A stretch of 64,000 nucleotides of DNA. Origin: Owenia fusiformis (taxonomy: Eukaryota > Annelida > Polychaeta > Sabellida > Oweniidae). The position numbers and the translations under genes were made by a program. The notes under the pieces are model-generated. The model was not told the DNA's origin. It searched no databases and saw only the letters and a list, made by a program, of their open reading frames with translations. Positions 21,758-61,345 of the stretch are shown piece after piece; the first letter of the stretch is position 1, and every line of letters begins with the position of its first letter. Location: contig CAIIXF020000010.1 in NCBI GenBank assembly GCA_903813345.2, positions 15,063,181 to 15,127,180 on the forward strand, in the 5' to 3' direction.

Positions 21758-24700
21758 ATGGAGGAAATTATGAATGTTGTGTATTTATCTTTAATTTTGG
21801 CCATTTTACATGTTGAGGCAAGAAACAGTCGATTTTCTGATATGGGAAAAACTCCTGATTCAAGTAAGTTTTTAATTGATAACAATCATATTTCTGCTTT
21901 TTCTCTTCTACTTAATGCTCAACAAATGCTTTAAAACATTAATTTAATGATCTGCTAATAGTTTTCGTAATAAAAGCATTCTAAATAACCTTTGTAAATC
22001 ATGAAGATACATGATAAAAGGATATGATAGGGATGACATAACTCATTTACAGCCATTTAGCATTACTGGTTGCGTCCATATTTAAGCGAATAATATTTTC
22101 ACGATGGAAGAATCCAGATTTTCTTCATACTTATACCATAAAGATATAATATCTACAAATATCTGATCCTTTTTTGATTAAAAGAAAGCTTAGTTTGGTT
22201 CCTTTCCTGTGGTACATTTGGTTTGATATATTTACTTTGATTAACATGCATTTACTTTGATTATGTCATCTTGATTTGATACATTCCCCAAAATATCTAT
22301 TTTGCTCTATTTTCTTTAATAAACATGCATTTACTAAGATATATTTTTAACCATCATGATATATTCCAGGGTGCCATGAAAAAAATGAAAATTACCTCGT
22401 AGAGTATGTGGCAATTGACCCAATTGACAAAACACAGTGTACCTATTACCGATGTGCAGATTCTTACTATAAGAAAACCAGATGCCCAAAGGGCACATCG
22501 ATAGGCATAAAGTATAAGATAAAAGGAAAGAAAGGAATTTCACAAAGAATGATGCCATGTACCATACAAGCTGATGCATGTGGAGATCCAAATGAGGAAG
22601 CACAACGAAACAGTAAGTATGATAATGAAGTACATAAGGGGGAACTAGACTTGCTATATGTTATATGTAAGTTGTCACGCCCATAGCCAGGATTTGCAAA
22701 AGGGGGTCACTTTTTAAATCATGATAAGTTAAAAACAAGAACACAAATGTGTACAATATGTCCCGACCAATGGGTGATCCCATGAAATGGTTATCCTGAA
22801 AATGAGTAGACAAGACTTTACTGACACAATTTGAGGACGGAAAGTCCAAAATGGCCGCCTTAAAATTTACCCAGAATCCCCAAAAATTAGCTAGTTCTAG
22901 ATCCGTCAAACAGTTAAACAAGACTTTACAGACAAGATTTTAGGATGGAAAATCCAAAATGGCTGCCTTGACATTTACCCAGAATGTCAAAAAACTAATC
23001 AGTTCTAGATTTTTATACTAAGAATCATCCCTGAAAATTTGAAATTGATCTACCAAACGGTTCACCTGAAAACGCGTAGACAAGACTTTACAGACAAGAT
23101 TTTAGGACATAAAATCCAAAATGGCTGCCTTGACATTTACGCAGAATGTCAAAAAACTAATCAGATCTAGGTTTTCATACTAAGAATCATCCCTGAAAAT
23201 TTGAAATTGATCTAACAAATGGTTCACCTGGAAATGCGTAGACAAGACTTTAGAGACAAGATTTTAGGACGGAAAATCCAAAATGGCTGCCTTGACATTT
23301 ACCCAGAACGCCAAAAAAACTAATCAGATCTAGATTTTCATACTAAGAATCATCCCTGAAAATTTGAAATTGATCTACCAAACGGTTCACCTGGAAATGC
23401 GTAGACAAGACTTTACAGACAAGATTTTAGGACAGAATATCCAAAATGGCTGCCTTGACATTTACTCAGAACGCCAAAAAACTATTCAGATCTAGATTTT
23501 CATACTAAGATTCATCCCCGAAAATTTGAAATTGATCTACCAAACGGTTCACCTGAAAACGTGTAGACAAGACTTTACAGACAAGATTTTAGGACGGAAA
23601 AAACCAAAATGGGCGACAATAAAAAAGTGATTATGATTTTTTGCTGATTTCCTTTTACAAAATTATCACATATAACTACTGTTAACAATAACATAGGCTT
23701 TTTCAACAAAGTACACCTGGAATTATTTATAAAGCTACAAAATAGTTAAAGTATGAAAACTCAAAAACACCATTCAATATGATACAAAGTATTATCGCGC
23801 GCTAACTTTTCTTCAGACATTCAAAATGGCTGGCATGACTGGGCTAACAGGTCCAAAACCTAGTCAGATGTAGAATGAAGTGAGCTGAACAAGATGTTAA
23901 AGTTTTAAAAGCAACTGTGAAGCCGTTTTTCTTAAAGTTTGCAGACAAGGATTTTAGCATTTGACCTCAAAATGGCCGACAGGAAGTAGCTATCGAGTTA
24001 TTTTTTTTTATCCACATCTGTATGCACTCACAAGTTATTCCTGAAAATTTGAAGGTGATACCTGTAGCGGTTTTGGAGAAAACTGCCGGACGTACGGACG
24101 GACAGACAGACAACCAGACAGACGGACGGACGCGCCTAGGACGCAAGCTGGCCCCACACTATGTGGTGGGGACATAAAAATGATAATCATGGCTGGGAAT
24201 CATAGAATTAGATACAATTGATTACATAGATTTTTGTGGTCATAGAAATGTTCATATTGATTGCAAGGAGGTTGCATTTTGTCAAGAAGTTGGACTACAT
24301 TTAATTAATGATTAGTACTGCATTTGGAGAGGAGGTTGCATTTTGTCATTTAATTGATAATAAGTAACTGCATTTGGAGGAGGTTGCATTTTGTCATTTA
24401 ATTAATGATTTTTACTGCATTTGGAGGAGGTTGCATTTTGTCATTTAATTAATGATTAGTATATGTACTGCATTTGGAGGAGGTTGCATTTTGTCATTTA
24501 ATTAATGATCAGTATATGTACTGCATTTGGAGGAGGTTGCATTTTGTCATTTAATTAATGATTATTACTGCATTTGGAGGAGGTTGCATTTTGTCATTTA
24601 ATTAATGATTATTACTGCATTTGGAGGAGGTTGCATTTTGTCATTTAATTGATAATAAGTAACTGCATTTGGAGGAGGTTGCATTTTGTCATTTAATTAA

Positions 24701-27693
24701 TGATTTTTACTGCATTTGGAGGAGGTTGCATTTTGTCATTTAATTAATGATTAGTATATGTACTGCATTTGGAGGAGGTTGCATTTTGTCATTTAATTAA
24801 TGATCAGTATATGTACTGCATTTGGAGGAGGTTGCATTTTGTCATTTAATTAATGATTATTACTGCATTTGGAGGAGGTTGCATTTTGTCATTTAATTAA
24901 TGATTATTACTGCATTTGGAGGAGGTTGCATTTTGTCATTTAATTAATGATTAGTATATGTACTGCATTTGGAGGAGGTTGCATTTTGTCATTTAATTAA
25001 TGATTAGTATATGTACTGCATTTGGAGGAGGTTGCATTTTGTCATTTAATTAATGATCAGTATATGTACTGCATTTGGAGGAGGTTGCATTTGTCATTTA
25101 ATTAATGATTATTACTGCATTTGGAGGAGGTTGCATTTTGTCATTTAATTAATGATTATTACTGCATTTGGAGGAGGTTGCATTTTGTCATTTAATTAAT
25201 GATTATTACTGCATTTGGAGGAGGTTGCATTTTGTCATTTAATTAATGATTAGTATATGTACTGCATCTGGAGGAGGTTGCATTTTGTCATTTAATTAAT
25301 GATTAGTATATGTACTGCATTTGGAGGAGGTTGCATTTTGTCATTTAATTAATGATCAGTATATGTACTGCATTTGGAGGAGGTTGCATTTTGTCATTTA
25401 ATTAATGATTATTACTGCATTTGGAGGAGGTTGCATTTTGTCATTTAATTAATGATTATTACTGCATTTGGAGGAGGTTGCATTTTGTCATTTAATTAAT
25501 GATTAGTATATGAACTGCATTTGGAGGAGGTTGCATTTTGTCATTTAATTAATGATTAGTATATGTACTGCATTTGGAGGAGGTTGCATTTTGTCATTTA
25601 ATTAATGATTAGTATATGTACTGCATTTGGAGGAGGTTGCATTTTGTCATTTAATTAATGACTAGTACTGCATTTGGAGGAGGGTGCATTTTGTCATTTA
25701 ATTAATGATTAGTACTGTATTTGGAGAAGGTTGCAATTTATCATTTATTAATGATTAGTACTGCATTTGGAGGAGGTCACAATTAGTCATTTAATTTATG
25801 ATTAGTACTGCACTCGATTGCACCACAAATGTTTATATCAACCATTAAAGGTTATATAACTCATCAACAAACTAGTTAATCAATTTCAATTCTGAATAAT
25901 TACTTTTCTTCATGCTAAATGTTAATCTGATCTCATATTACAGTGTATTGTGATATCTTTTAAGAAATGATTCACCAATTTATTTTCAGTGCTCTCAGAG
26001 AGGACATTGAGATTCTGTGGTATGGATCTGATATGGGTGGCTGATATGAGCTGTTCTATTGCACCAGACGACAAGGAGCGTGTTAAAAAATTCATAATGA
26101 ACGTCATTGAATCATTCCGTATCAGCCCTATACATGTTAGAACTGGTGGTGTTTCTTATGGACATGAGGTCCACAATATACAAACTCTAAAAGAAGGGAG
26201 AAATCGTCCTATCACACTTAGGAACTTTGAAAATATGAATACTGATGACGGCAAATGCAGAACAGTTACAAATGACGCACTTAGAAGAGTAAGAGACAAA
26301 TATTTCATTGAAGCTGCTGGAGATAGACCTCAGTTCCCAAATGTATTAATAGTTATTACTGATGGAAAAACAAATCAGGGAAAAAAAGAAGACAACGATG
26401 CTTTCTCTAAAGAAACGATTCGGCTAGCTGAGGAAATACGTAAGAGTGGAGCCGAAACGATTGTGGTAGGTCTAGCTCAAAAGCGGTCTGGCAAGCTGAC
26501 TGGGTATGAAGAATGGTTAGGGATTGCAGGTACTGAGGAGAATATTTACGTAATGGAATCATTTGAACAATTGGCTACAAAAGTGAAAGTTCTTGCTGAA
26601 AAGTCATGCTGTAAGTAATTTATTCAATAACTAGCATGGTTTATCTATCCCATCATCTATATATCTGATGAAAATACAGGTTTATGTCAGAGTGTAGGTA
26701 TACCCAGGAGGAGTGAGTAGCTCCCATAATTCTTTCATATTCTATCGTATTCGGGGATTCCCCATTACATCATCTCTTGCATCATCTCCAATCAAATTGC
26801 AGGATTCGATCACATGAACAATCATGAGTACGTGCTCTCTCAGTGCTCCGCATGCGCAGAGTTAAATTTGAAATCGTGGGGTAGCGTTAATAGCTGAGTT
26901 CAACATCATCATTTTAAACCTACGGTAATACTATTGAAGTTACTCGATCCATACTTGTAGAGAATACTCATAAAACTACAGTGAACATTTGGAGATTCAT
27001 TTTAACGGCAAATTGAGGCCTGATTATGAAATTTGTTTTCGAACGTTCTAATATGATAGGTCATCTTTGGGAAATCTCTCCCCCCCTGGGTATACCAATG
27101 GGTACAGATTGTGTTCCCCTTTTAGCAGATCTTTTTCTGTTCTCATTTTTTACAACTAAGGATGAAGAAAGCTAAAGCTAAATTTCATTCTGCAAAGTGA
27201 TTTAATAAGACAGATGGATATATTGATGACCTGTTAAGTTCAGACAACCCAAAATTTAAAGACTTCAGATGAGATATATTCTCCTAAGCTAGAATCGAAA
27301 AAAGACTTATAAATTACCAATATGAAATAACTATTAACTAGTAATAACTAATATTAGTATGATAGTAAATTATGCTGAGAAAATAACAGGCAAAACTGTA
27401 GTTTTGTTTGATCTGTGAAACAAAGCTTTGGTAAAAACATGCGTGTGATTAACATAAATGATATCAATGCTTGATGTCATGTGTGTTGATTTTCCCCAAT
27501 GGTGTCTTAATTTTACAATTTTCAGCTCCTATCATTTCTTGTCAAATCCATGTTTTAAAATCTTGATGGTCTCCTGGGTGTTAATCCATAGTTAATCCTT
27601 GAAAATGAGAAATATTTTTGGGGATTATATGATGCAATCTTACTAACTGTATTTAACTTATTCTATTTTTCAGTTCATGGACATGAAGTGTAA
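21758..27693 (+). CDS. Gene A: secreted CBM14-like + vWA protein
   Basis: Predicted secreted protein of 329 aa. Exons: 21758-21863, 22370-22612, 25990-26610 and 27674-27693, all GT-AG and phase 1. Exon 1 is a signal peptide (core VVYLSLILAIL). Exon 2 has six cysteines with C-TYYR-C and then C-P-K-G, resembling a CBM14/peritrophin-A chitin-binding domain. Exon 3 is a vWA domain: it opens FCGMDL, has the MIDAS signature DMSCS, a Thr in CRTVTNDAL, Asp in VITDG, and closes with EKSC. The 20-nt exon 4 adds FHGHEV. In-frame ATGs also occur at 21728 and 21770; I chose 21758 because the basic extension before it is unlike the other copies, but 21770 would also give a good signal peptide. Intron 2 (3.4 kb) is swollen by two arrays. 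Ligand is unknown; chitin binding is inferred from the domain only. Confidence 0.85.
22675..24178. repeat. Repeat element with 162-bp internal units in intron 2 of gene A
   Basis: Units of about 162 bp carry CAAGACTTTACAGACAAGAT at about 22919, 23081, 23243, 23405 and 23568, with CAAAATGGCTGCCTTGACAT nearby. The block ends in a GGACGGACAGACAGAC-rich segment (24090-24135) and then CCCCACACTATGTGGTGGGG, a small hairpin near 24152-24171. GGACGGA-rich tails of this kind recur in the window (also near 38690). The element family is not identified. Confidence 0.65.
24240..25815. repeat. 47-55-bp minisatellite in intron 2 of gene A
   Basis: About 30 units share GCATTTGGAGGAGGTTGCAT followed by TTTGTCATTTAATTAATGAT. 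Units come in a short form (spacer TATTACT) and a long form (spacer TAGTATATGTACT or CAGTATATGTACT). A block of six units from about 24340 is repeated from about 24650, which shows a higher-order repeat of about 305 bp. Units at the right edge are more diverged. Confidence 0.92.
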
Positions 27694-28021: not shown

Positions 28022-28023
28022 TG

Positions 28024-29089: not shown

Positions 29090-32000
29090 ATGCAGCAAGT
29101 TTTGCAGGTTTTTATATTCATATGTGTGTTTGTACTGGCATACTCTGATGAAGAAATCAGACGTAAGTAAACTTTATATGAATTATGAAGAATTTTCATA
29201 TTTTCTATTATTAATTTTTGATTAATCAATTAATTAAATAAATGACATACTGATAGCATTGGAGTAAAAATGACACAACCTTTTTTGGCATGGGCAATCA
29301 AAATTCTATTATCAATATTTTTTAATCAATCAATTAAATGAATGACACTAACTGATAGCACTGGAGTTAGAATGATGCAACCTTTTTGGCATGGGCAATC
29401 AAAATTCCATTATCAATATTTTTTAATCAATCAATTAAATGTATGATACTAACAGATAGCACTGGAGTTAGAATGGCACAACCTTTTTGGCATGGGCAAT
29501 CAAAATTCCATTATCAATATTTTTTTTATTAATCAATCAATCAAATAAATGACACAAACTGATAGAACTGAAGTCAGAATGACACAACCTTTTTGGCATG
29601 GGCAATCAAAATTCCATTATCAATATTTTTTTTAATCAATCAATAAATGAATGACACTAACTGATAGCACTGGAGTTAGAATGGCATAACCTTTTTGGCA
29701 TGGGCAATCAAAATTCTATTATCAATATTTTTTATTAATCAATTATTTAATAAATGACACAAACTGATAGAACTGAAGTTAGAATGGCATAACCTTTTTG
29801 GAATGGGCAATCAAAATTTCATTATCAATATTTTTTAATCAATCAATTAAATGAATGACACTAACAGATAGCACTGGAGTTAGAATGGCACAACCTTTTT
29901 GGCATGGGCAATCAAAATTCCATTATCAATATTTTTTTTATTAATCAATCAAATAAATGACACAAACTGATAGAACTGAAGTCAGAATGACACAACCTTT
30001 TTGGCATGGGCAATCAAAATTCCATTATCAATATTTTTTTTAATCAATCAATAAATGAATGACACTAACTGATAGCACTGGAGTTAGAATGGCATAACCT
30101 TTTTGGCATGGGCAATCAAAATCCTATTATCAATATTTTTTATTAATCAATTTATTAAATAAATGACACAAACTGATAGAACTGAAGTTAGAATGTCATA
30201 ACCTTTTTGGCATGGGCAATCAAAATTCTATTATCAATATTTTTTATTAATCAATTTATTAAATAAATGACACAAACTGATAGAACTGAAGTTAGAATGG
30301 CATAACCTTTTTGGCATGGGCAATCAAAATTCCATTATCAATATTCTTTATTAATCAATCAATTGAAAACATGACACTAACTGATAGAACTTAAGTTAGA
30401 ATGATACAGCTTTTTAAAATGTAACAGAAGTGCAATTATTTCAGATCATTGAAACCCTGGCTAGTTCACAATAAGAAGAGGTGGTGACATTGTTATGCCC
30501 CATGCTAAATTTTTTAGTTAATTTATATAATAATTGTGATATTTCTACACTTCCATATAGGCTAAATAATAAAAAAGAATAATGGGATTAAACAGATAGT
30601 TCATAAATTTGATGTCAAAACATAAAAGGAGTGTAATATTGTTTAATATTTCTAAATCCAGGTTGTAATGATGCTACAGAAAAATACATGGTTATCCCAA
30701 AATTGTTCCGTCAGCCTAATGAGGACCAGTGTGAATATTTAAGGTGTGTAAACTCCTATTATGTGCGGGAACAATGTCCTAAAGGGTTAGCTATTCAGGA
30801 TAGATATCTACAACGTAAGGATGGACAACCTCTTCAAAAGAGTAAGAAACCCAGCGATAATTATCCCTGCAGAAAACGAAGTCAGGCTTGCCGTCAAGGG
30901 AACCCTCCTATAAGTAGGTAATTTTTTAGTAAACATTATTTAGCATAAATAAGACTGAGCGAAATAAGCCATTGCGACATTCTTTGACATATCAGCATAT
31001 TTAGCATAAATAAAACTGAGCGAAATAAGCCATTGCAACATTCTTTGACATATCAGCATATTTAGCATAAATAAGACTGAACGAAATAAGCCATTGCAAC
31101 ATTCTTTGACATATCAGCATATTTAGCATAAATAAAACTGAATGAAATAAGCCAATGCAACATTCTTTGACATATCAGCATATTTAACATAAATAAGACT
31201 GAGCGAAATAAGCCATTGCAACATTCTTTGACATATCAGCATATTTAGCATAAATAAGACTGAGCGAAATAAGCCATTGCAACATTCTTTGACATATCAG
31301 CATATTTAGCATAAATAAGACTGAGCGAAATAAGCCATTGCAACATTCTTTGACATATCAGCATATTTAGCATAAATAAGACTGAGCGAAATAAGCCATT
31401 GCAACATTCTTTGACATATCAGCATATTTAGCATAAATAAGACTGAGCGAAATAAGCCATTGCAACATTCTTTGACATATCAGCTTGTAATGTATAGACT
31501 GCATAGAGGTGTAGAGGTCATAGAGGTTCATGGTAAATATGTTCATATTGTATAATAGAAGGATATTTCTTTTTAATGTTGTTATCAATTATGATAATGA
31601 TCAATAATCCTTGGTACATGATGTGCTTCTATTTACTACAGGGCCAGATCTTTCTTTCTGTGGCATGGACCTTATGGTGGTCATTGATATGAGCTGTTCT
31701 ATCAGTGACGAAAACAAAACAACTGTCGTTAACTTTGTCCAGGACCTCATTTCCAAATTTGTTATCAGTCCGCTACATGTAAAAATTGCAGGAATCTCTT
31801 ACGCATCAAAAGTGAATAACATTCAGACATTTAATGAAGGTCGAAACCGACCAATCACAATGAGAAACTTTAAAAGGATGACGAGGGAAGATGGCAGGTG
31901 CCACACAGTAACAGACGACGCATTGGAAGCTGTACGAGATATATACTTCAAAGAAGTCATGGGAGACAGACCGTTGTACAAAAATGTACTGTTACTTTTG

Positions 32001-32400
32001 ACTGATGGCCATTCCTACAAAGGGAAGAAAGTTGACAAAGAAATGTTGTCCAATAAAACTATTGCTTTAGGGGCTGAACTTAGAAAGAACGGAGTCTTGA
32101 CTATCATTGTTGGGTTGCCAAAGAAGAGAAAGGGGACTCTTGCTGGAATGAATGAGTGGCTCGGAATTGCTGGAGACCCGGAAAATATATTATATATGAA
32201 CACATTTGATGAACTTGAAACGAAAATCCAGTTAATAGCTGAGAAGTCATGTGGTAAGCTATTGATGATTTGTCATTCTTTTTATATGCATAAATTGGGT
32301 CTTAACAGTCAATTTAATATTAATGTAATATACAGTACCTGCACTCTATATTATATCTATTGTTTATTTATTCATTTCAGTGAGCTTGAATGAAGTGTAA
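29090..32400 (+). CDS. Gene B: secreted CBM14-like + vWA protein
   Basis: Predicted 318 aa. Exons: 29090-29162, 30662-30913, 31642-32253 and 32381-32400, all phase 1. Exon 1 is the shortest in the cluster: a signal peptide with core VFIFICVFVLA and only a few residues after it. Exon 2 is the most diverged cysteine module (C-EYLR-C, then C-P-K-G), keeps all six cysteines and has an extra basic loop (QKSKKPSD) before the fifth. Its donor is GTAGGT rather than GTAAGT. Exon 3 is the vWA domain with FCGMDL, DMSCS, CHTVTDDAL and LLTDG. The 20-nt exon 4 encodes VSLNEV. Introns 1 and 2 are filled by a 102-bp and a 61-bp array. Closest neighbour in sequence is gene C (same KGKKVDKEMLSN segment). Confidence 0.85.
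29200..30400. repeat. About 102-bp tandem repeat in intron 1 of gene B
   Basis: Around 11-12 units, each with CCTTTTTGGCATGGGCAATC about every 102 bp, followed by CATTATCAATATTTTTT, TTAATCAATCAA and ACTGATAG(C/A)ACTG. Two alternating unit types (TGGAGTTAGAATGGCA and TGAAGT(C/T)AGAATG) indicate a two-unit higher-order structure over part of the array. Confidence 0.9.
30941..31489. repeat. 61-bp tandem repeat in intron 2 of gene B, nine units
   Basis: Units with TAGCATAAATAAGACTGAGC and TTCTTTGACATATCAGCATA recur every 61 bp from 30941. The last five are nearly identical, so the array has been homogenised recently. It begins only about 27 bp after the exon 2 donor. Confidence 0.92.
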
Positions 32401-33915: not shown

Positions 33916-36900
33916 ATGAAGAATTTGATTTCAATTTTTGGATTGATGTGCCTCACACTGATAGCACATGCTCAAAAAGAAATCAAAATTAAAAGGGATC
34001 CAAGAAAGTTTTCAGAACCTGGAAAAACGATTAAATCACGTAAGTTACTTTATTGTGATTACATGAACACATGTACTTGTCACAAAAATTCACTCACCAA
34101 AGATTATAGATTTATTAGATTTAGAAAAGAAGTTTATTATTGAGCATGCAATTCACTTCTTTGACTTCATAAAAACTTCCAGATAATTGACGACTGCCAA
34201 CACTCTTCACTCTTTTCACCCCCTAGAGATAGATTAAACTAATGTAGCAATATCAGTGATCTCCCCAGGATTTTTTTGCTTGCTTTAATGCTTAGGAGAT
34301 CACTGAATATATTGAGACATTAGAAAATACAAAATATATTATATATTATTATACAGACCTCACAGGTTAAAATGTAATTCTGGACGCCAGTCTAATGATT
34401 ATCTTATACATCCTATAACATCTGGTGGTTGTAAATAAATATGATAACAACACAAATCTTTGAATATTTTTTAAACATTTTTGCATTCAAGAAATTCTGT
34501 TCACAGAATTCTTATTTGTGAACATAGCCATTCATCTTTATTTTCATCGAAACAAAAAAATTCTCTGTACTTCCTTAAATAATATAGAACATTTGGGAGT
34601 ATTGGAAAATATATCTATATGCTAAAAATGACATGAAGTGTAAGGGAAAATGATACCCTGCGTGCAGAGTCTAGTTAAACTACACTCTGCCTAGTAGAGA
34701 CCATATTACAGTTTAGTAGCCCCGCCCCATGACGGGTACCGGTGACAGTATGGGTAAATCACTTTTGACCTACGCACTGACCTTCCACCAATCAGTGAGC
34801 TTGAAGAAACATACGGCAAATGCGTTCTAATTAAATATGCGCATGTCATTGGTCAATTCCGGGCTCAACGATGACGTCAGAAGGAATGACCATATAAAGA
34901 ACGTCGGTCAAATTTGGCCGACGAACACTGATTGGCGCGGTGAGTTCACAGGTTTATTTTAGTTTGAAAGAGTGAAGACGAAGCTCTCTTTTAAGAAGTG
35001 TAGTCAAACGAATGCAAAGGGTAGGAAAATGACACTAATCACAAAAATATTTTCTTCTTGTTTTCACAACCTTTATTTTACTAAACAGGATGTTTCGGAT
35101 CCTGTCTGGATCCTTTTTCAACTGTATTTTGTTTAGTAAAATAAAGGTTGTGCAAAGAAGAAAAAAATATTTTTGTGATTTGATAATCTAACCTGAAGAA
35201 CATGTTTAAGAAAATGACACTAGTTTGAGAAAAGACACTTGTACTTAGTCTCTGATACACCTTGACATTGTTATAATGACTCTAGTATGATTGAGTGTTC
35301 AAATATCTGGTTATTTTGGATTTTGAAATCTCCTTCCATTGTTTAACATCAACCTAACAAATATGCAAAATATTTTTTCTTTTCTCTTCAAGGATGTCAC
35401 CATGCAAATGAACGTTATATAGTTGAAAACATACCTCCAATATTTCGCCTCGAGAAGGTGCTCTGTGATTATTACCGGTGTGATAATTCATATTATGAGA
35501 AAACAAGGTGTCCTGATGGAATAGGCATTGGAGAAGATTTTTTGGAAACAGCTAAAGCTGGAATTGCCCACAGTCTTAATCCATGTAATTTACGTACAGA
35601 GGAATGTGCACAGCAAAATCCCATACAAAGTAAGTTCCAATTTCGGCATGTATTATCAGAATTGCAAAGTTCACTCTACTATACCTTGCATTTGGTGTTC
35701 ATGAGCAACCCATCTGGCTTATTAGTAATGTCATGTTATTTGTTTTTATTTGTCTGTTCCTTATTAATGGTTTAATGGATGACTGTTAGATGGTAATAAG
35801 GTACTTTCAAAAATATACTGAACAATACAATTAGACAAACAGAGTGTCTTATGCATTTCTAGGGGTTAGGTATAGTAGAGTGAAGTTATTTATTGAAATA
35901 TAGATACTGGTACATGAAAATATAGACTATATATGTATATGCATATTGTTTACTTTAAAATGGAATTCTAATTTTTTGAAGGTTTAAATCATTCTGTTAA
36001 AAAACAATATAGTTGATTGCATGATTTGATATAATGTACATTTATCAATAATGATTTATAACATGATTCTCATTTGTCAATGATCTTCATAGGGCCAGAT
36101 CTTTCTCTCTGCGGTATGGATCTTATGTTGGTGATTGATATGAGCTGTTCCATCAGTGACGCAAACAAGACAACTGTCATAAAGTTTGTAAATAACCTCA
36201 TTAGGAAGTTCAGACTCGGTCCACTACATGTAAAAATTGCAGGAGTCTCTTACGCATCAAAAGTCAATAATATTCAGACATTTAAAGAAGGCCGAAGCAG
36301 ACCACTTACATTGAAAAACTTCGACAAAATGGTGAGGAATGATAGCAGGTGTCACACTGTTACACACAAGGCACTGGAAGCTGTACGAGATATATACTTC
36401 ACAAAAGAAAATGGGGACAGAGGTTCATTCAAAAATGTCATGATTGTTGCAACTGATGGCAATTCCTATGAAGGGAAGAAAGTTGACAAAGAAATGTTGT
36501 CTAACCAAACCATTGCTTTAGGGACTGAACTTAGAGAGAGGGGAGTCATGTCTATGGTAATTGCGTTGCCAAAGAGGAAAAAGGGTGCTCTTGTTGGAAT
36601 GAATGAGTGGCTGGGAATTGCTGGAGATCCAAAGAATGTATTATATATGAACTCATTTGAGGAACTTGAAAACAAAACCCAGTTAATAGCTGATAAGTCA
36701 TGTGGTAAGCTGTTGATGATTTTTCATTTTTTATATGTATAAATTGGGTCTTAACAGTCAATTTAATATCAATGTAATAGTACAATAACATCATTTTAAG
36801 GGCAATATAGTGAAATATTGGACCAAGGGCCAAAGGCCCAAGGTCAAATATTTCACTATATTGCCCGCAAGGTGGTAATAATATAGTATTTGCAGTATAT

Positions 36901-39167: not shown

Positions 39168-42100
39168 ATGAAGAATATGATTCCAATTTGCGCACTGATG
39201 TGTGTGATAGTCATGGTTCATGCTGATAAGGAAGTGAAAATAAAAGAAGAATCTGAGTTTTTCTCAGAACCAGGAAAAAATATTTCTTCAAGTAAGTGAC
39301 ATATTGTTACTTCATTCTCTCAAAACTCAACGCTAAAATCGTTAGTATGCTGAGTGGCAGTGTTCTTCAAATTATGCTTTATTTAAGAACTTCATGAACT
39401 TAAATAATTAGTTTTACCTTTTTAAAGCATGAAGTTGTATTTGAATTTACCTCGACCATTTGAATTTGCCTTGACTATTATAATTTGCCTCACCTATTTG
39501 AATTTGCCTCAACTATTTATCGCTTTGATAAAGTTTCTTTATCTCATCTTCGACTCGATAAAGAAGAATTATCAAAGCTCATCAAGAATGGACGATCTTG
39601 CACAGGTACTCATATAAGAACCTCTATATCTATAAGAATAGTTTGAAAAGTGAAAATTTGCTATAGTAGAAAATCCAGTAGTAACATTTATCTATAATTA
39701 CACTGATATATTGCTAGTTAATTTTCTATTCTACTCAGTATATTTTATTACAAGTGCCACATATCATTACAGTTCTCTGACTTATAAGGTTTAAAATAAT
39801 ACACATCATCTTTGAACTTGCATATGAAACATGCATATCATGTCAGGATAAAATTGCATTGTATTTGTATATTTTTGATTTATATTAGCCATAAATGTCG
39901 TAAACTAGCAATACTATTTTCTCTTTTTGCCAGGATGCCACCAAAAGAATGAACAATATATACTTGAGGAGCTTCCACCGTTTGGCGCCGAGGAACTGGT
40001 CTGCGATTACTACAGATGTGTCAATACACGTTACCAGAAAACCAAGTGTCCCCCTGGTAGGGCTGTTGGAAAAAAGTATTTGGAAATGGCAAACCATGGA
40101 ATTGCCACTAGTCTATTTCCCTGCAGCCAGCAAACTAAGGCTTGCGGAGGACTCAGTGATGTTTCATTTCGTAAGTTCAATATAATTGATCTCTTCATAT
40201 GTTAATTCCTGACTTTGAAAGCTTAAGAAGTTTATTAAAGTTGCAATGAAAGAACAGTCAGAAGCTCTAATTAGCTTGTACTCAGCACATAGAACAAGTC
40301 TTTATTATTTTAACTTCAAAGCTAGTGATATTCTCTACAAAACACGATAATTAAGAGAAAACTGTCAACCCCTGAAACATCATTATTTTCGCTTTTTGAG
40401 ATGATCAGGAGCTTGATATGGCAGAATACCTATTCCAGCAAAAAATATTTCTTCGAGGATAGGTATTCTGGCCATATTCAGCTCCTGATAATACTGTATT
40501 TGTTTTATTTTCAATCAATCTTAATATCAATCAAAATATAGTAGAGCAAACTAGAGTGATATAAATTACCAGCTCTGAACTAAGGTTTATTATAAAGTCA
40601 TTTATAAATTTTATGAAAATCAATTTCAAAATGACAAGTACCCCTATGTCCAGAATAGATAATTTTTGAGTTTGAAAATAATATGTTATTTGGGTATTAA
40701 GAAATGTACAATACAAATTATTAATTTTCTTCTGAGAATATTAAGATTGCACCAAGCATTTATTGACTTAACATGAGAATATGCAACTTTGACTTAACAT
40801 TAAGGGTATCATTATATCCCTTCAACCTAATATTATGTTTTTGCCCTTTGACCTCTATTGTCACACCTATATACTCATGTAGCATTTTTTATGTCACTCT
40901 TATTGGGGTCACACTCCCACCCTCATATAAACTAAGGAGAGAAGCAAAGTCACATAACTGATCATGGAGAGTAACACAAATATATCCTTTATGCAATTAA
41001 AGCACATTCTCCTGTTTTATATGAAAAATTATGATGTCAAAAAGAAACTTGGCATTGTTTTCATGGATATTTGGCTTGCAATTTCTAAGAGAAAATGTAT
41101 CCATAACCACAAAGTGTAAACATCATAATTATATACTGTTGTGTTGCCTAGACCACAAACTTAAGTGTTATGGAAATTTAGATTGAAAATAGAAACCAAT
41201 GGTCAGAATATATTTTGATTCTAAAAGCATGACTGATTTCTTAATTTCACCCCTTGGTGACGAAGGGTTAATATCTAATTTTGCATATTTCATACCAACT
41301 GAGGTTTTAGGTACATCATACCTTATAAAGATCTAAAATTCCTAAATATACTTAAGGTACGCATTTTACTGGTCTTAAAGTTTGCGAGATTTTCAAAAAA
41401 TTTGATAAAAAGAAATTTGAACAAAATAGAAAAAAAGTGAAAAAAAATTTGAAAAAAATTTGAAAAAAAATTTGAAAAAATGTGAACCTCGCATTGGATA
41501 ATCTCTATACATTGTATGAGCTGAAATGATTCTTGAATTTTGTTACACTGAAATCATTTTGATTTCAAACATAACAATGGTAAAAGGTGCAAATGAACTT
41601 TCTCCAAAAATGATGAGTAATCCACATTGAAAATATTTTTTAATGGTTCCTTCTTGATAGTTCGAGTGCTCCTTATTCATATAAGGATTGTTCATATGTA
41701 TATAACTTGAGGGTAAATATGTAAAAGTAGGACTAAAATTAGGTTGATCAATATAATACTGGTTGTCAAGATCTACTAAAAACTGTCTCTAAGTCAATCA
41801 TATTTTTCATGATTATTTATTTACATCTAAATTATTTTACTCTTGTTATTATTATATTGTTTTTTTAAAACCTTTATATTGTTGATTAACAGCTTGATAA
41901 ATAAACATCAATAGATTAGATGCGAGTAGATATAATCTTGATTAATGTCATTAAATATTCAGAATTCAGTCAAAGTGATATCATATTTAAAATCTACAAG
42001 TAAAAATACTTCTAGAAATATGGTTACAGAAATAGTTTATCAACTTTGAAAATTTACTTTTTTTGAAAATATAATTTCTGTTCGGGGAGATTCCCCATAG

Positions 42101-44010: not shown

Positions 44011-47000
44011 ATGAAGAATATGATTCCAATTTGCGCACTGATGTGTGTGATAGTCATGGTTCATGCTGATAAAGAAGTGAAAATAAAAGAAGAATCTGAG
44101 TTTTTCTCAGAACCAGGAAAAAATATTTCTTCAAGTAAGTGACATATTGTAACTTCATTCTCTCAAAACTCAACGCTAAAATCATTAGTATGCTGAATTG
44201 CAGTGTTCTTCAAATTATGCTTTATTTAAGAACTTCATGAACTTAAATAATTAGTTTTACCTTTTTAAAGCATGAAGTTGTATTTGAATTTGCCTCGACC
44301 ATTTGAATTTGCCTTGACTATTATAATTTGCCTCACCTATTTGAATTTGCCTTTACTATTATAATTTGCCTCACCTATTTGAATTTGCCTTGACTATTAT
44401 AATTTGCCTCACCTATTTGAATTTGCCTTGACTATTATAATTTGCCTCACCTATTTGAATTTGCCTTTACTATTATAATTTGCCTCACCTATTTGAATTT
44501 GCCTCAACTATTTATCGCTTTGATAAAGTTTCTTTATCTCATCTTCGACTCGATAAAGAAGAATTATCAAAGCTCATCAAGAATGGACGATCTTGCACAG
44601 GTACTCATATAAGAACCTCTATATCTATAAGAATAGTTTGAAAAGTGAAAATTTGTTATATACTAGTAGTAGAAAATCCAGTAGTAACATTTATCTATAA
44701 TTACACTGATATATTGCTAGTTAATTTTCTATTCTACTCAGTATATTTTATTACAAGTGCCACATATCATTACAGTTCTCTGACTTATAAGGTTTAAAAT
44801 AATGCACATCATCTTTAAACTTGCATATGAAACATGCATATTATGTCAGGATAAAATTGCATTGTATTTGTATATTTTGGATTTATATTAGCCATAAATG
44901 TCGTCAACTAGCAATACTATTTTCTCTTTTTGCCAGGATGCCACCAAAAGAATGAACAATATATACTTAAGGAGCTACCACCGTTTGGCGGCGATGAACT
45001 GGTCTGCGATTACTACAGATGTGTCAATACACGTTACCAGAAAACCAAGTGTCCCCCTGGTAGGGCTGTTGGAAAAAAGTATTTGGAAATGGCAAACCAA
45101 GGAATTGCCACTAGTCTATTTCCCTGTAGCCAGCTTACTAAGGCTTGCGGAGGACTCAGTGATGTTTCATTTCGTAAGTGCGATATAAAGCTTATAAAGT
45201 TTATTAAAGTTGCAATGAAACAACAGTCAGAAGCTCTAGTTAGCTTGTACTCAGAACATAGAACAAGTCTTATTTTAACTACAAACAAGTGATATTCCCC
45301 ACAAAACACGATAAATAAGAGAAAAAAATGTCAACCCCCAAAACATTGCTATTTTCGCAGACTTTTTGAGGTCATGTGACCATGACAGTTTTAACGTACT
45401 GGATGATCAGGAGCTTGATATGGCAGAATACCATATTCAAGCAAAAAATATTTCTCCGAGGATAGGTATTCTGGCCAAATTCAGCTCCTGTTCATCCTGT
45501 ATTTGTTTTATTCTCAATCAATCTTTGGAGTGTACTGCAATGTACTTAAATTTTTAGAATTTTGATTTTTCTTCAAACTAAGACTTCATCCGTTTACCTA
45601 TATGCCTACACTGAACAAAAAATTGTCCCAGAAGATTTCTTTTTCATTTAATATTGTTTTTCTGTTATATTGTTTTGACTAATAAATGTGTTTTAATAGT
45701 TATAGGTACACTTTTTTCTCTTATTTGGCACACAATACAAGTATTTATTTCACAAAATATTTGAGTTACAGTGAAATGAAATTCTTGTGTGGGATTCTTC
45801 AAAAAATACTGGACAGTCCTGACCGATATCAAAAAAATATTGGTCAGTTTTAAAAAAAATATTAATCTGTTATTAAAGAAAGCCAGATATGGCCAAATTA
45901 CCAGCCGCTTAAAACCACCTCTGAACTAAAGTTCCAATACACCATTGGAAAGCTGAAAGTGTCAGCTTTAAGAATCTGACCTCCATTATATTGGCCTCGG
46001 AATAATCCCAAAATCCGGAACCTCGTATAGGATAATCTCTTTACATTGTATGCGCTGAAATGATTCTTGAATTTTGTTACATTGAAATCATTTTGATTTC
46101 AAACATAACAATGGTAAAAGGAGTTATCCACATTGAAAATATGTTTAATGGTTCCTTCTTCATGGTTCGAATGCTCCCTATTCATATTAAGGATTGTTCA
46201 TATTTATATAACTTGAGGGTAAAATGAGGTTGATCAATATAATACTGGTTGTCAAGATCTACTAAAAACTATCTCAGAGTCAAACATATTTTTCATGATT
46301 ATTCATTTACATGTAAATTATTTTACTCTTGTTATTATATTGTTTTTTAAAACCTTTATATTGTTGATTAACAGCTTGATAAATAAACATCAATTGACAA
46401 AATCATTTTAATTCATACCTTCATATATTACAGGACCAGATTTAAAGTTTTGTGGCTTTGACCTGATCTGGGTGGTAGACATGAGTTGCTCCATTGCGGA
46501 TGATGACAAAACAAAGGTGGTTGAGTTCATAAACAATGTTATTAAAAAGTTTCATATTGGTCCAATGCATGTTCTAACCGGTGGTCTCTCTTATGCATCA
46601 GAGACAAATGACATACAGACTCTTAAAGAAGGCAGAAATAAAGCAATCACACTTAGAAACTTCGCGAAAATGGAACAAAAAGAATGCAAGTGTCGAACAA
46701 GGACAGATTTAGCCCTGAAACAAGTTCGAGATCATTACTTCACGAAAGCTGCTGGAGATAGGCCTGATTACCAAAATGTTATGGTATTCATCAGTGATGG
46801 AATGACATACATTTCAAAGCAAGATGACAATGAAGCTTTTTCTCAGGAAGCAATTTGTTATGGGGTTGACATCAGGAAATCAGGAGCGAAAAATATTGTG
46901 GTAGGGATGCCGCATGCAAAAAAGGATGACTATGTAGGAATGGAAGAATGGATAGGGATAAGTGGAGACTCATCAAGAATATATCTTATGGAATCTTTTG

Positions 47001-47231
47001 AAGAGCTCGCAGAAAAAGTACAATACATGGCAGAAAATATTTGTCGTAAGTAGTTGCCTGTCATCTTCAAACTTTTGAAAGCTTTACGAATACATTGTGT
47101 TATACAGTATATTTCTAGGTGAAGACTTTAATATCAATTCCGACATACAGAAAAGTAAATGTTAATCAAAACCAGTAATAATTAATACTCTTAATCACTT
47201 TTATCTAATTTTAGCATCTTCGGAGCAGTAA
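44011..47231 (+). CDS. Gene E: secreted CBM14-like + vWA protein, recent duplicate of D
   Basis: Predicted 329 aa. Exons: 44011-44134, 44937-45173, 46434-47045 and 47215-47231; phase 1. Signal peptide and linker have the same residues as in gene D. Exon 2 differs from D at very few residues. The vWA exon keeps DMSCS, CRTRTDLAL and FISDG, but has two cysteines absent from all other copies: KECKC (D has KDGKC) and EAICYG (D has EAIGYG). The first part of the exon resembles gene F more than D. Exon 4 is 17 nt because one codon is missing, giving PSSEQ. No disabling change is visible, so it is probably functional, but the new cysteines are notable. Confidence 0.87.
44276..44520. repeat. Expanded 38-bp minisatellite in intron 1 of gene E
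   Basis: About six units of the repeat seen with two units in gene D. The expansion explains most of the 160-bp length difference of intron 1. Confidence 0.8.
45408..45490. repeat. Fold-back segment in intron 2 of gene E
   Basis: Counterpart of the 40406-40487 segment in gene D, with a few substitutions in the arms. Confidence 0.65.
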
Positions 47232-50022: not shown

Positions 50023-52160
50023 ATGAAGAACATATTATCAATTTTTCTATTGATGTGTATCACACTGCTAGTACATGCTCAAAAAGAACTGGAGGTCAAA
50101 AAGGAAAGTGAATATTTCTCTGAACCAGGAAAATCGATAAATTCACGTAAGTGACCAATTATTATCATGCTCTAAACAATGGATAACCTTTAAGGGATGT
50201 CTCTTTCCTGAGGTTAAGATATTTTGATAATGGACTCTTCTACCTGCCACCCCAATTCAATGATTGATTTAGGGTAGCTTATTATCTGAAATGAAGCAGC
50301 TTATAAGTTGTTTGAAATTCCTACTAAAATGAGACATTCTAATTTCTAACTCTGTGTGAGAATGCATTAGTCAATCAGTGAATCATTTTACAGAAAAAAA
50401 TATTTGATATATATTTTTTGAATAAAAAATTCAAAAAATACTTTTTGATGTTTTTTGACTGAAATAACTGTCCCAAAATGGTATATCCTTTATTTAGTCA
50501 AATTTTGACTTACCTATACAATAACATTATGTATATATATATATTGTATTGTGTAATGATAGCCTAGAGTAGTGTAGTGTAGTTTAGGGTAGTTAAGTTA
50601 ATTAATACTTATTTTGTAATGACTAATATGCCAGGTCATGACATCTAAGAGTCAATAAAAAATATAAAAGCAATAAAGCATGTCTCACCTAATTTTCATT
50701 TTAGTTACATTTCTGTATTGAGCATTACCGATATTATTGGCTGAACAGTTTTTCTCTTTGCCAGGTTGCCATCAAGAAAATGAATACTATATAGTACAGC
50801 CTTCAATATTTGGGGATGTGTGCGACTATTACAAATGTGTAAATACATATTATGAGAAATTTAGATGTCCTCCTGGAAGAGGTGTTGGAAAAGATTATTT
50901 GGATTACGGAAAAGAGGGTATTGCCCATAGTCTATTTCCCTGTAGCCTAAACACAGAAGCATGTGCTTTAGGAAACCCTGTACCTCGTAAGTTCAATTCA
51001 TAATATTCATTTCTTATCATTTCACATATCAAAATAAAGTTCTACATGTATTAAAAATACAAAAAAGACAATTGACAAAATCATTTTAATTCATACCTTC
51101 ATATATTACAGGACCAGATTTCAAATTTTGTGGCTTTGATCTGATCTGGGTGGTAGACATGAGTTGCTCCATTGCGGATGAGAGCAAAGCAAAGGTGGTT
51201 GACTTCATATACAATGTTATTAAAAAGTTTCATATTGGTCCAATGCATGTTCTAACTGGTGGTCTCTCTTATGGGTCAAAGATACATGACATACAGACTC
51301 TTAAAGAAGGCAGAAATAAACCAATTACACTAAAAAACTTTAAGAACATGGTTCAAGATGATGGCAGTTGTAAAACAGTGACATATAAAGCACTCAAACA
51401 AGTTCATGATCACTACTTCAAGAAAGAAAATGGAGATCGACCAGATTACCAAAATATTATGATATTTATCAGTGACGGCATAACATATGAAGGGAGGCTT
51501 GCTGACAACGAAGCTTTATCTCAAGAAGCAATTGGTTATGGAGCGGATATAAAGAAATCGGGAACAATAAATTTTGTACTGGGGATGCCAAACAAAAGGA
51601 AGGATGATTATGTTGGTATGAAAGAATGGGGAGGGATAGCTAGCTCGAATGGCAATGTAACACACATATATCTAATGGAATCATTTGATGAGCTTGCGGA
51701 AAAGGTGCAATACATGGCAGAAAATATCTGCTGTAAGTAAGCCTCTGTCATAAATAAGTTGTTCTTATTTATTATCACATTATTACAGGCATTATACATG
51801 TATTTAATTTTTATATTAATACATGTAATATTGATTTTGGAAAACATATCTGAGCTTGACCTTCTCCTTTGGGAGACTAGAGAGCTTGACCTTCTCCTTT
51901 GGGAAACTAGAGAGCTTGACTTTCTCCTTTGGGAGACTAGAGAGTTTGACCTTCTCCTTTGGGAGACTAGAGAGCTTGACCTTCTCCTTTGGGAGACTAA
52001 AGAGCTTGACCTTCTCCTTTGGGAGACTAAAGAGCTTGACCTTCTCCTTTGGGAGACTAGAGAGCTCCACATAATACTACTGCATAACCGCTTATCCTTA
52101 ATATAAAAAAAAAATTAATCAGATGTTTCTTTAATTCCAGTACAATCTACATTGTATTAA
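50023..52160 (+). CDS. Gene F: secreted CBM14-like + vWA protein (compact copy)
   Basis: Predicted 328 aa and the shortest gene of the cluster (2.1 kb). Exons: 50023-50146, 50765-50986, 51112-51732 and 52141-52160; phase 1. Signal peptide MKNILSIFLLMCITLLVHA; an in-frame ATG 21 bp upstream (50002) would add seven residues, but the chosen start aligns with C, D and E. Exon 2 keeps six cysteines but has a shorter loop between the first and second. The vWA exon has FCGFDL, DMSCS, CKTVTYKAL and FISDG and is three codons longer near its end (ASSNGNVTHIYL). The 20-nt exon 4 gives LQSTLY. Intron 2 is only 125 bp and its last 43 bp match gene E exactly. AATAAA at 52328. Confidence 0.87.
51852..52066. 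repeat. 30-bp minisatellite in intron 3 of gene F
   Basis: About seven units containing GAGCTTGACCTTCTCCTTTG and GGAGACTAGA. Because the unit is a multiple of three, open frames run through it on both strands (some overlapping the vWA exon); these are not genes. The array sits between the vWA exon and the 20-nt last exon. Confidence 0.92.
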
Positions 52161-53757: not shown

Positions 53758-56682
53758 ATGGAGGTCATTATTAGTGCTTTTATATTAATAAATTTATATT
53801 GGACATCAAATGCAATTTCAAGCGATTACTATTTTTCAAACAAAGAAAAAACAAAAGAATCAAGTGAGTATAAATACATCTTACATATTTATTTTCTGAT
53901 TTGTATAAGGGCCACTTAACTTGTATTGGTGAATGTAACTTTCGACTGGGCTACCGCATTCACTTACTATTTTATGGGCAACTTATTTAAATATGAATAG
54001 TTACTCCCAATGTTCCATTCAGTAGAGTTTGTTATAATTTGTTAGATTAGATTCATTTGTATTTAAGTTAGGTCCTGAAGAAGCTAAAGAATTGGATAAA
54101 GGAAACATAGGGTAGTTTGTTCATTTATTCTATATGATTCATGTTCATCAGAAGGTAAGTTGTGCCATATCTATCTAGAGAAAAGAATATGTTGTCAGAT
54201 CCCAGAATTATGCAAGAAAAATTGAAATTGTGCAGCAAAAAAACACAAAAAATTATATAGAGGAAAATGCAAATTATCTAATTATCTACAACAAAAACTT
54301 AAAAAATCCATATTTAAGTATATAAAAGCCTTCTTAAATTTTGTGATAGCACCAATCCCATCTCACCATATGTACCACCATTTTCGGTATAGGAGATTTT
54401 AAACTTTTTTACCTATTAATTATGAATATGATGAAGCAATGAAACATCAGGTGAAATAACTATGCACTGATGAATGAATCATGTAACATTTCTAGAAATT
54501 CAAAACTATGAAAAAATTTAAAAAGCACCACATGGACACATGTTTCTGGAATCTGTGAGTGTTTTGTTATTAAAAATACTAGATACATTATATTCAGTTC
54601 ACATATATGTGGTGGAGTCAACATCTATTCATAAAGCTGTCCATAAAATACAAAAGTTCACAACAGTCACCAGGAGGAAACTATGGCCATAAAACCCAGT
54701 CTCAAAGCAAAATGCTGCAGAAACAACCTTTTTGATGAGAGATCTAAGGTGCTGGCATATCAAAAAGTAGGCACATCAATCTTAGCCTAGATCAAGTTTT
54801 GGATTTTATTGAGTTACACTACGTCCCAGTTTCTACTCATTTCTGGCATTACTGACATCTAAGAATGATTTACCTTTGCTTGATTCTCTTTAAGGGTGTC
54901 ACCAGGCCAATGAGCGTTACCTAGTCATTCCTCCACCACCATTTGCAAGCCAGGATGATGAAGGGTGTACTTACTATGAATGTGACAACACACGTTACAT
55001 AAAGCGGACATGCCAAAAAGGACAGGCTGTGAGTCGGAAATACAAAAAAAGATCAGGGTATCCAGGACGACTTCACCCCTGTATTACAAGTTCATTAACA
55101 CCATGTGGGTTAAGAGACGAAATCAAACGTTAGTATTTTATTGTTAATTCAATTCATTCAGGAAATCAATCAAGCATGTTAGAAACATGATTTTGTAAGT
55201 GATAACATTAGTGGTTGGCTTTAAACAATTGTAGATATTTATGTCACTGATCATTGTTCAATCATATCATTTTTCCAGGTCCTGAAGTAAACTTATGTGG
55301 AATGGATTTAGTCATTGTGATGGATATGAGTTGCTCTATTGCAGAAAAAGACAAACTTTTAATGATCAAATTTGTGCAAAATCTTATTAGCAAGTTTCGC
55401 ATAAGCGCTCTCAATGTTAAAGTAGCTGGAGTCACATACGCAGGAGGAGTCCACAACATACAGACTTTCCAAGAAGGTAGAAATCGTGCGATCACTCAGA
55501 ACAACTTTGATCGCATGGTAACGAAAGACAATAATTGTCACACAGTGACAAATGAAGCCTTAGAGCTGATTAGAGATGTTTATCTCAAAAAGGAACAAGG
55601 AAGCCGGAAGAATTACCCAAAAGTTATGATGATATTTAGTGATGGGAAGACATTCAAGGGAAAGAAAATTGATTCTGAGGTTTTATCCAATAAAACCATT
55701 GAAGTAGGGAAAAGTATAAGAGATATGGGAGTGTTATCACTTGTAGTAGGGATACCAGGCAGGAATAAGAAATTGAGTGGCTATCACGAATGGCTTGGGA
55801 TAGCTGGAACAGAAAAAAATATTTTTGTTGCAGAGTCTGCTGAACGGTTGAACATGTTACAAGAGAAAGTGCTACACTTAGCTGAGACCACCTGCAGTAA
55901 GTCTAAAGCTAAACATTTATGACTGCAAAAATGATCCAAATAAATTTGGGCTGGTGATTGAGAACTATAATTCGTCAAGTGGACTGAATTTTTTAACATT
56001 TGAAACCACTCAGGATGATGAATAGTTGGTAACGAATCCTCTGAAATGGCCAATATGTCCCGATATTGATTATGTCTAAATGAAGGATCATACAGTAAAA
56101 ATCATATGATTTTATACAAATCATATGATTTTATATTATTAAATATAGTGTAGAACAACTTAGTTTTTATATTGAACATTACAGTTTCCATGACAGAACA
56201 TTCTGTTTTTAATAAACTTTATTTTACAATATTTTTAAATTTTTATCAACATGCTATATTTTCGCCAGATTAAATTTACAGGGCATTTAAGAGTTTGAAA
56301 CATGTGTACCATTACTAAATATATGTACCAAAGTCAAGACCTTTTGGTATACAATTGTTTAAATTACAACAAGAGGCCTTTCCTCTACCATGATCAAAAT
56401 AGTTCACATGCATGACCACTATTTTGAGTGAACATTGTTTGTCTTGAAGTATACCATTTTCATATATGGAACTGTCACTTTTTTAGTGACTGACTAATAT
56501 GACCCAATTCCCGACCCCTCCACCCTATTTCAGAGCCACTCCCTCCCATTTGGGAATACAATAACTCAATATTATAACAACTCATATAATCTAAGTTTAT
56601 GATCATCAAATGCTGCTCCCTAAAAGGATACATGCTGCTAACTTATGTTTTGTATTTTACAGGCAGCAACCCGAAGCAATAG
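53758..56682 (+). CDS. Gene G: secreted CBM14-like + vWA protein (diverged copy)
   Basis: Predicted 325 aa. Exons: 53758-53863, 54895-55128, 55279-55896 and 56663-56682; phase 1. Donors are GTGAGT and GTTAGT for introns 1 and 2. Signal peptide core VIISAFILINLYW, then a linker unlike C-F. Exon 2: six cysteines with C-TYYE-C; the usual P after the fourth cysteine is replaced (C-Q-K-G) and a proline run (IPPPPF) precedes the module. The vWA exon has LCGMDL, DMSCS, CHTVTNEAL and FSDG, closing TTC. The 20-nt exon 4 gives SSNPKQ and a TAG stop. AATAAA at 57029 lies in the same context as in gene A, so A and G may share ancestry at the 3' end. Confidence 0.86.
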
Positions 56683-57847: not shown

Positions 57848-58020
57848 CAGGGATTCTTGACTAATGCACCGATAATTGCGATGGCCTCTTAGCCATTTAA
57901 ATATGATTATTTCTGAACAAACAATAAAAATCAATATCTCAGAGATTCTCAGATTATCTTTTATCAATGCACCGAGCATTAACGTGGCCTCTTTGCCATT
58001 TAGACACTATTATATGTGCA
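57848..58020. repeat. Diverged two-unit tandem duplication
   Basis: Both halves contain ATGCACCGA, GGCCTCTT(A/T)GCCATTTA and AACAATAAA- or GCAATAAAC-like ends, about 120 bp apart. Confidence 0.5.
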
Positions 58021-58550: not shown

Positions 58551-59253
58551 AAAGACCACGTGCAGTATAGCAGCTTTCACCATGAGTACTTTCTGGGCAT
58601 AAATACAGTGGTTTTTATTAAGACAATATCTTTTCTTTCAAGTGAAGTACCCATGATGATAAAAATATAAATCAAACATTTCGAAAAAATTATGAATAGG
58701 GACCCCATGTCAACATATTTTTCAAAATATTGAACCAATTTACTCAAAAGAGGATCTTCTTTTTCTGATTTTTATTGCATGAAAACATTATTCAACAAGG
58801 GGTCTAAGTCATGTTCAAAAATAGAATGGTATTGAAAGTCTAGTTTTGAAGATATCAATTTTCGATGACCAAAATTATGCTGAAAACAATGGATAGCACG
58901 AGTTTTCCCTATGGGAAAATAACATGGGATATGTGGTTTTAAACTCATTTCAATACCCATCCCCTTTTCAGAAATTGTTAATATAGTATAGAGGAGACTT
59001 CCGATATGTTTAAATTGAGAAAATAAAAGATCCTCTTTTTCGAAAATAAGCCTAACATTCTTCAAAAAGTGCCAAGGTGGGGCCCTTATCCATAATTTTT
59101 CAGAGAGTTGGATTGATATTTTACTATCATGGGGACTTCACTTGAAAGAAAACATATTGTTTACATAAAAGCCACTGTATTTATGGCCAGAAAGTACTCA
59201 TGGTGAAAGATATGACAGTCTAAAATCACTTGCCATACTGCACGTGGTCTTTT
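58551..59253. mobile_element. Fold-back (MITE-like) element with about 230-bp arms
   Basis: The ends AAAGACCACGTGCAGTAT (58551-58568) and ATACTGCACGTGGTCTTT (59236-59253) are exact inverted repeats. Further in, CACCATGAGTACTTTCTGG pairs with CCAGAAAGTACTCATGGTG, TTTCAAGTGAAGT with ACTTCACTTGAAA, and GGACCCC-type and AGAGGATCTTC-type blocks pair at lower identity. The central part has no transposase. No clear target duplication was found, so the superfamily is unknown. Confidence 0.75.
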
Positions 59254-61251: not shown

Positions 61252-61345
61252 ATGAAAATTTTTCATTGTTTATTTCTTCTGTCAATTCTGTCAGAAATCA
61301 AAGGAAAGAGCACTATAAAAGCTCCAATGAGAAGACCAGAAGATA
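61252..61345 (+). CDS. Gene H: first exon of an eighth vWA-family gene (partial)
   Basis: MKIFHCLFLLSILSEIKG forms a signal peptide, followed by a basic linker (KAPMRRPED) and a GTAAGT donor at 61346. The exon ends in phase 1, as all first exons of the cluster do, and its position continues the spacing of the array. No cysteine module or vWA exon was found between 61346 and 64000, so exon 2 should lie beyond the window (other first introns are up to 1.5 kb, so this one is longer than usual). Assignment to the family rests on position, phase and signal peptide only. Confidence 0.5.

Follow-up and report, generated by a model that had tools for sequence, protein, structure and literature searches.

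VWA-CB proteins are known in Mollusca, Nemertea, Phoronida and Brachiopoda, and the excerpts of PMC7747718 describe them as expanded in molluscs only. Among them, the Pif/BMSP proteins (VWA-CB dcps) of molluscs and other lophotrochozoans, are secreted, carry VWA and CBM14 or CBM14-like domains in one protein and were expanded by duplication (excerpts of PMC11291548 and PMC7747718). Their VWA domain lies upstream and their CBM14 downstream, often with LamG, and a CBM_14 or CBM_14-like domain follows VWA in 38 of 50 Pif/BMSPs (PMC11291548). For pearl oyster nacre, the excerpts of PMC5597905 report a chitin-binding domain in two of ten VWAPs, and RNAi of six pearl oyster VWAPs is said there to disorder nacre. 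VWA proteins are also listed among the shell proteins of Lingula (PMC4595640, in excerpt), and VWA and ChtBD2 are enriched in the tube proteome of the tubeworm Paraescarpia (PMC8476170, in excerpt). According to the same excerpt, the expanded LamG proteins of this worm join LamG to VWA or to ChtBD2, and the order ChtBD2-then-VWA goes unmentioned in it.

Here we describe a tandem cluster of Owenia fusiformis that resembles the Pif/BMSPs in predicted secretion, in the joining of the two domains and in expansion by duplication, and the Paraescarpia tube proteins, which bring VWA and ChtBD2 domains into a chitin matrix, in the tandem expansion reported there for chitin-binding related proteins (PMC8476170, in excerpt). 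In contrast to Pif/BMSP, the CBM14-like module comes first in the cluster and the predicted products of the genes in the window (the whole stretch of DNA analysed, 64,000 nt) are only 324–358 amino acids long and end at the vWA domain. A preliminary description of this DNA had already noted that shell proteins usually put VWA first, unlike the cluster, and the 38 of 50 Pif/BMSPs agree with it. All seven complete models of the window end in the vWA exon, and no LamG or further domain follows it in these gene models.

The domain order, together with the distance of 119 kb between the nearest CBM_14 and VWA starts among those compared, led us to reject a canonical Pif/BMSP identity. No CBM_14 start was found within 119 kb of a VWA start among the 131 CBM_14 and 148 VWA starts compared, and thus no ordinary Pif-like gene was seen among these positions; the two family searches scored 150 of 337 and 150 of 685 candidates, and matches beyond these could change the result. 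The 148 VWA starts exclude most of the near-identical rows of C1:37.84–37.86 Mb and some others. We regard the cluster as a new form of the known VWA/chitin-binding proteins, with reversed order, small size, a divergent CBM14 and a pair of cysteines at the MIDAS.

Gene models, extent of the cluster and relatives in the genome

The window covers positions 15063181–15127180 of contig CAIIXF020000010.1 (C10) and contains seven complete gene models on the plus strand, from 21758 to 55922, all predicted from genomic sequence alone. Each model has three exons, encoding a signal-like segment, a six-cysteine CBM14-like module and a vWA domain, in this order in seven of seven. Gene 1 (21758..26618; VWA E-value 3.7e-24) consists of exons 21758–21863 (signal-like), 22370–22612 (CBM14-like) and 25990–26618 (vWA). 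The same arrangement is seen in gene 2 (29090..32393; exons 29090–29162, 30662–30913 and 31642–32393; 9.7e-22), which has a C-terminal extension beyond the conserved CxK end, and in gene 3 (33916..36742; exons 33916–34039, 35393–35629 and 36093–36742; 1e-21), a mosaic discussed below. Gene 4 (39168..43005; exons 39168–39291, 39934–40170 and 42386–43005; 2.3e-19) is followed by its recent duplicate, gene 5 (44011..47053; exons 44011–44134, 44937–45173 and 46434–47053; 4.2e-19), by gene 6 (50023..51740; exons 50023–50146, 50765–50986 and 51112–51740; 2.4e-20) and by gene 7 (53758..55922; exons 53758–53863, 54895–55128 and 55279–55922; 4.8e-22). Gene 8 enters the window, also on the plus strand, with its signal-like exon 1 only (61252..61345); its exons 2 and 3 lie past the right edge, in locus L001, and gene 9, whose exon 1 is a candidate only, was found further on in locus L002. 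Since the row runs on beyond the window, the cluster comprises nine genes in about 55 kb, and in a quick tree a branch with SH-aLRT 97 sets the nine vWA domains apart. These models confirm the architecture proposed in the preliminary description, with a signal-like exon, a six-cysteine module and a vWA domain, as well as its count of seven complete plus-strand genes and an eighth begun at the right edge; the tandem amplification that it proposed also holds, with its extent corrected to nine genes. The relatives elsewhere in the genome, the coupled cysteines at the MIDAS and the exchange of exons, all treated below, go beyond that description.

The 14 introns of the seven models are all GT-AG and all in phase 1, and the reading frames are open in the seven genes. 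For the N-terminal signals, a hydropathy cut-off was combined with visual inspection: five of the seven pass the cut-off, and genes 3 and 7 were accepted by eye. With cleavage sites placed by eye, the predicted mature products have 304–339 amino acids, about 35–39 kDa, 10–13 cysteines and a pI of 6.0–9.4. Of 42 exon comparisons by the Nei-Gojobori method, 22 yielded a dN/dS ratio, with values from 0.14 to 0.58; several of these 22 have dS above 1 and are rough. Synonymous sites are saturated in the remaining 20, which are uninformative. We rejected a local artefact or pseudogenes as explanations, because the frames are open in all seven genes and these 22 ratios are all below 1.

Searches of the genome (498 Mb in 525 contigs, of which C1–C12 are longer than 30 Mb each and the other 513 share about 21 Mb) with four exon queries revealed relatives of the family on many chromosomes. 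Searches for the molluscan haemocyanin beta-sandwich, COX1 and haemerythrin gave no match; the controls of the haemocyanin search gave none either, and it carries no evidence on the taxon. Exon 2 of gene 4 gave 29 matches at E 0.1 and exon 2 of gene 7 gave 19 at 0.1; exon 3 of gene 4 gave 92 at 1e-5, with other vWA types among them, and a split first vWA exon gave 66 at 0.001. A CBM14-like exon followed by a vWA exon on the same strand was found in 29 genes of the loci read (seven in the window, 16 in L001–L013 and six in L015–L018 and L020). Clusters differ in the introns inside the vWA domain, which is uninterrupted on C10 and in part of C3, has a single intron near residue 42 in L003 and L004, and has two introns in L015–L018. 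Locus L014 (C12:10674500–10684000) shows four six-cysteine CBM14-like exons with degenerate vWA-like frames without DxSxS, a derived and probably metal-free branch. In the segment C1:37840411–37860487, vWA repeats of almost equal score follow one another in tandem at intervals of about 1.9 kb and form an array of another vWA type.

The six-cysteine module and the vWA domain

The six cysteines of exon 2 are invariant in the seven window genes. The family pattern, C-x(12-25)-C-x4-C-x(9-11)-C-x(20-30)-C-x(6-7)-C, fits 29 of the 29 rows put to it, which were taken from 35 family rows after g5, L012, L013, L019 and two of L018 had been left out beforehand, and the pattern itself asked for the family spacings. 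In L012 and L013 the second cysteine is missing and extra cysteines are present. Compared with 20 CBM14 domains read in the genome, the spacing between the second and third cysteines is 4 instead of 5, and that between the fourth and fifth is 20–30 instead of 12. As an observation on canonical domains, C11:15407496–15411773 (L023, L024, L025, L027 and L029) holds CBM14 repeats in a single open frame of 3683 amino acids.

The Pfam CBM_14 profile (PF01607) called none of the seven window exons at E 0.001, the best value being 0.032 in one exon, and so the HMM check that the preliminary description had proposed for this domain was negative. A profile search of the PDB with the six-cysteine exon gave, up to E 10, a single match (E 0.24), to the C-terminal part of a chitinase, which we take to be the CBM14 of that chitinase. 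When the AlphaFold model of the module (pLDDT 71) was compared with solved folds, no match reached E 0.001 among 45 PDB matches; the top five are all CBM14-containing structures, namely full-length chitotriosidase (two chains), its CBM14, Der p 23 and tachycitin (E 0.18–0.83, query TM-score 0.31–0.36). Profile-profile comparison of the family module with the 20 genome CBM14s gave P 0.0014, against 0.05–0.43 in ten column shuffles, with an hhalign probability of only 7%. Judged from sequence, the module appears to be CBM14-like with a lengthened stretch between the fourth and fifth cysteines, and the likeness appears real but weak. Of the chitin-binding-like module proposed earlier, then, the six cysteines stand, while the Pfam call is missing, the spacing differs and the fold matches are weak.

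The same data bear on the idea that the module no longer binds glycan, or was not a CBM14 to begin with, and serves instead in protein-protein contact or folding, so that the protein would be a vWA cross-linker only. The failed Pfam call at E 0.001 speaks for it, as do the spacings of 4 and 20–30 in the 29 modules (put to a pattern requiring them), where the 20 genome CBM14s have 5 and 12. However, the order of the six cysteines is kept, a strand hairpin is present in the predicted model and chitin binders occur in the best fold matches, and we consider this explanation unlikely.

The vWA domain was identified firmly. Pfam VWA (PF00092) matches the seven vWA exons of the window with E-values from 3.7e-24 to 4.2e-19 (69.9–86.3 bits against a curated cut-off of 23.8), and chance is therefore excluded. 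The DxSxS motif, the Thr and the later Asp of the MIDAS are invariant in the seven domains, so that the complete vWA with intact MIDAS of the preliminary description, and its proposed VWA profile check, are both upheld. With pLDDT of 71 and 68, the AlphaFold models are of middling quality; a structure search with the predicted model matched the vWA to integrin I domains, collagen VI and the vWA of byssal PTMP1. Integrin I domains and collagen VI vWA are the closest solved folds and sequences and have a MIDAS as well; in contrast to the cluster, integrin alpha-1 has no cysteine at either of the two MIDAS positions treated below in the alignment, and the same holds for collagen VI alpha-3 where the alignment covers one of them. 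PTMP1 of the mussel byssus, a secreted matrix vWA protein, is the second PDB sequence match (4cn8) and the sixth fold match (4cnb), and differs in that it has two vWA domains and, in the alignments, lacks the pair of MIDAS cysteines.

Coupled cysteines at the MIDAS

Four cysteines are invariant in the vWA domains of the window. Two of them lie near the ends, and the other two belong to the MIDAS region, where C18 is part of DxSCS and C86 precedes the MIDAS Thr by two residues. Among 77 vWA domains of the genome in which both positions are readable, 45 have both cysteines, 32 have neither and none has one alone. Four otherwise family-like genes lack C18 (replaced by F, Y, K and K) and all four lack C86 as well; L064 and L073 are also without C18, and L017 lost the MIDAS pair and kept the two terminal cysteines. 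In L074 and L109 the MIDAS residues Ser and Thr were lost and both MIDAS cysteines kept.

The table of 77 domains includes 32 (L092–L123) picked by hand from the VWA lists, not at random, six of which carry the pair, and eight genes from short stretches whose halves were paired by strand and closeness (0.3–3.5 kb). L114, misaligned by the profile, was set by hand; its motif is DCSMN and it was counted as neither. From the 40 short loci L041–L080, 23 were excluded: 17 with the first cysteine present and only the first half read (L043, L046, L047, L049–L056, L060, L061, L065, L066, L075 and L077, with the Asp of the MIDAS motif replaced by His in L052), L064, L068, L069 and L073 without the first cysteine, L078, which is unreadable, and L079, represented by its second half alone. 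The table also omits L091, again only a second half, as well as one of the genes of L016 (the second) and the degenerate vWA-like frames of L014. L059, L062 and L063, without the first cysteine, were re-read with their flanks as L081–L083, and the second cysteine is missing in all three.

Since the two MIDAS cysteines are both present or both absent and never found alone, we infer a disulfide between C18 and C86 across the metal site. On the best tree (76 rows, L067 being too short) C18 and C86 each change four times, with at least two changes forced by strong branches; a sign test on independent pairs gave p 0.5 and, with too few pairs, was unable to reach significance. An open-licence literature search combining MIDAS, disulfide and cysteine in VWA turned up work on PilY1 and on a calcium-channel subunit.

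The corresponding face is exposed in integrin I domains. Both cysteines would lie on it, which could favour another arrangement, in which they do not pair with each other and instead form intermolecular disulfides, leading to polymers, or bind metal as thiols. The strict joint presence or absence (45 and 32 of 77), kept even in L074 and L109 with their broken MIDAS, fits an intramolecular pair best, and we consider the non-pairing arrangement quite improbable. In integrin alpha-2 the positions of C18 and C86 contact collagen, and thus an intramolecular clamp would also shape the binding face.

Duplication, exon exchange and the proposed role

Genes 4 and 5 are recent copies, with dS of 0.05–0.09. 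Gene 3 is an exon mosaic, and the exons of the cluster recombine: its exons 1 and 2 are closest to those of gene 6 (amino-acid identity 0.61 and 0.60), whereas its exon 3 is closest to that of gene 2 (0.71, against 0.49 with gene 6). The DNA similarity between genes 2 and 3 begins at the exon-3 acceptor. We compared synonymous divergence in five chosen gene pairs. Exon 3 has diverged less than exon 2 at these sites in genes 2 and 3 (p 3.4e-9), 8 and 9 (1.2e-5) and 5 and 6 (0.005); the result is borderline for genes 4 and 6 (0.054) and there is no difference for genes 4 and 5 (0.51). The lower divergence of exon 3 and the similarity of genes 2 and 3 from its acceptor onwards are best explained if the vWA exon underwent gene conversion or exon exchange. 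A search of the open-licence literature for gene conversion with invertebrate VWA/chitin proteins gave no match.

Minisatellite arrays with various units occur at 6896–7454, 16682–17067, 22918–23612, 24315–25807, 29203–30415, 30937–31484, 44287–44512 and 51852–52066, five of the eight in introns of genes 1, 2 and 5, and minisatellites may promote the duplications and the exon exchange. Upstream of gene 1, at 19060–20258, a 30-bp unit repeated 40 times forms a plus-strand open frame of 431 amino acids with an acidic NDNDDSHVEE-type repeat; it is open on the minus strand too, and so may be a minisatellite only.

These events would also suit secreted recognition molecules of innate immunity, in which diverse CBM14-like heads bind microbial or self glycans, the vWA engages a receptor or a complement-like partner, and the copies and exon exchange provide diversity. 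The 29 two-module genes of the loci read, the mosaic structure of gene 3 and the greater divergence of exon 2 than of exon 3 (amino-acid identity 0.39 against 0.71 in genes 2 and 3, together with the synonymous tests of this pair and of genes 8 and 9) are in line with such a function. However, no positive selection was seen on exon 2, with dN/dS of 0.18–0.58 in the eight of 21 exon-2 pairs that yielded a ratio, and we regard recognition as somewhat unlikely. On our analysis, a matrix cross-linker joining chitin-like glycans to a metal-dependent partner is the most likely role and is favoured over recognition, since dN/dS is low and the closest parallels in the literature are proteins of matrices.

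We infer for the family secretion, binding of glycan and of metal, the MIDAS disulfide and a role in the matrix, and we give about an even chance to the proposal that its members are small secreted two-domain adaptors of chitin-containing extracellular matrix. In such an adaptor the N-terminal CBM14-like module would hold a chitin-like glycan, and the C-terminal vWA would use a divalent metal in the MIDAS to hold an acidic ligand, which could be a matrix protein or a second copy of the adaptor. The cysteine of DxSCS and that located two residues before the MIDAS Thr would form a disulfide tying the MIDAS loops together, giving them one fixed shape and making the domain hardy outside the cell. 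Tandem duplication and exon exchange would have produced a large number of copies in which the heads are diverse and the vWA body is more uniform. It seems to us equally probable and improbable that the family is a large set of secreted vWA adhesion proteins with a MIDAS that is permanently set and non-switching, clamped by a disulfide that joins the loop of DxSCS to that of the Thr, the chitin-binding-like head being diversified by exon exchange and the vWA exon homogenised.

The family shows modular evolution, with the two halves of the protein evolving at separate rates, and it adds a small, reversed and highly copied form to the known VWA/chitin-binding matrix proteins. Integrin I domains switch their metal site allosterically, and engineered mutations at other places in the domain can lock it. 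Should the disulfide exist, the family would represent a natural way of locking an I-domain-like metal site, and ligand binding by a MIDAS that undergoes no conformational switching could be tested in a simple system.
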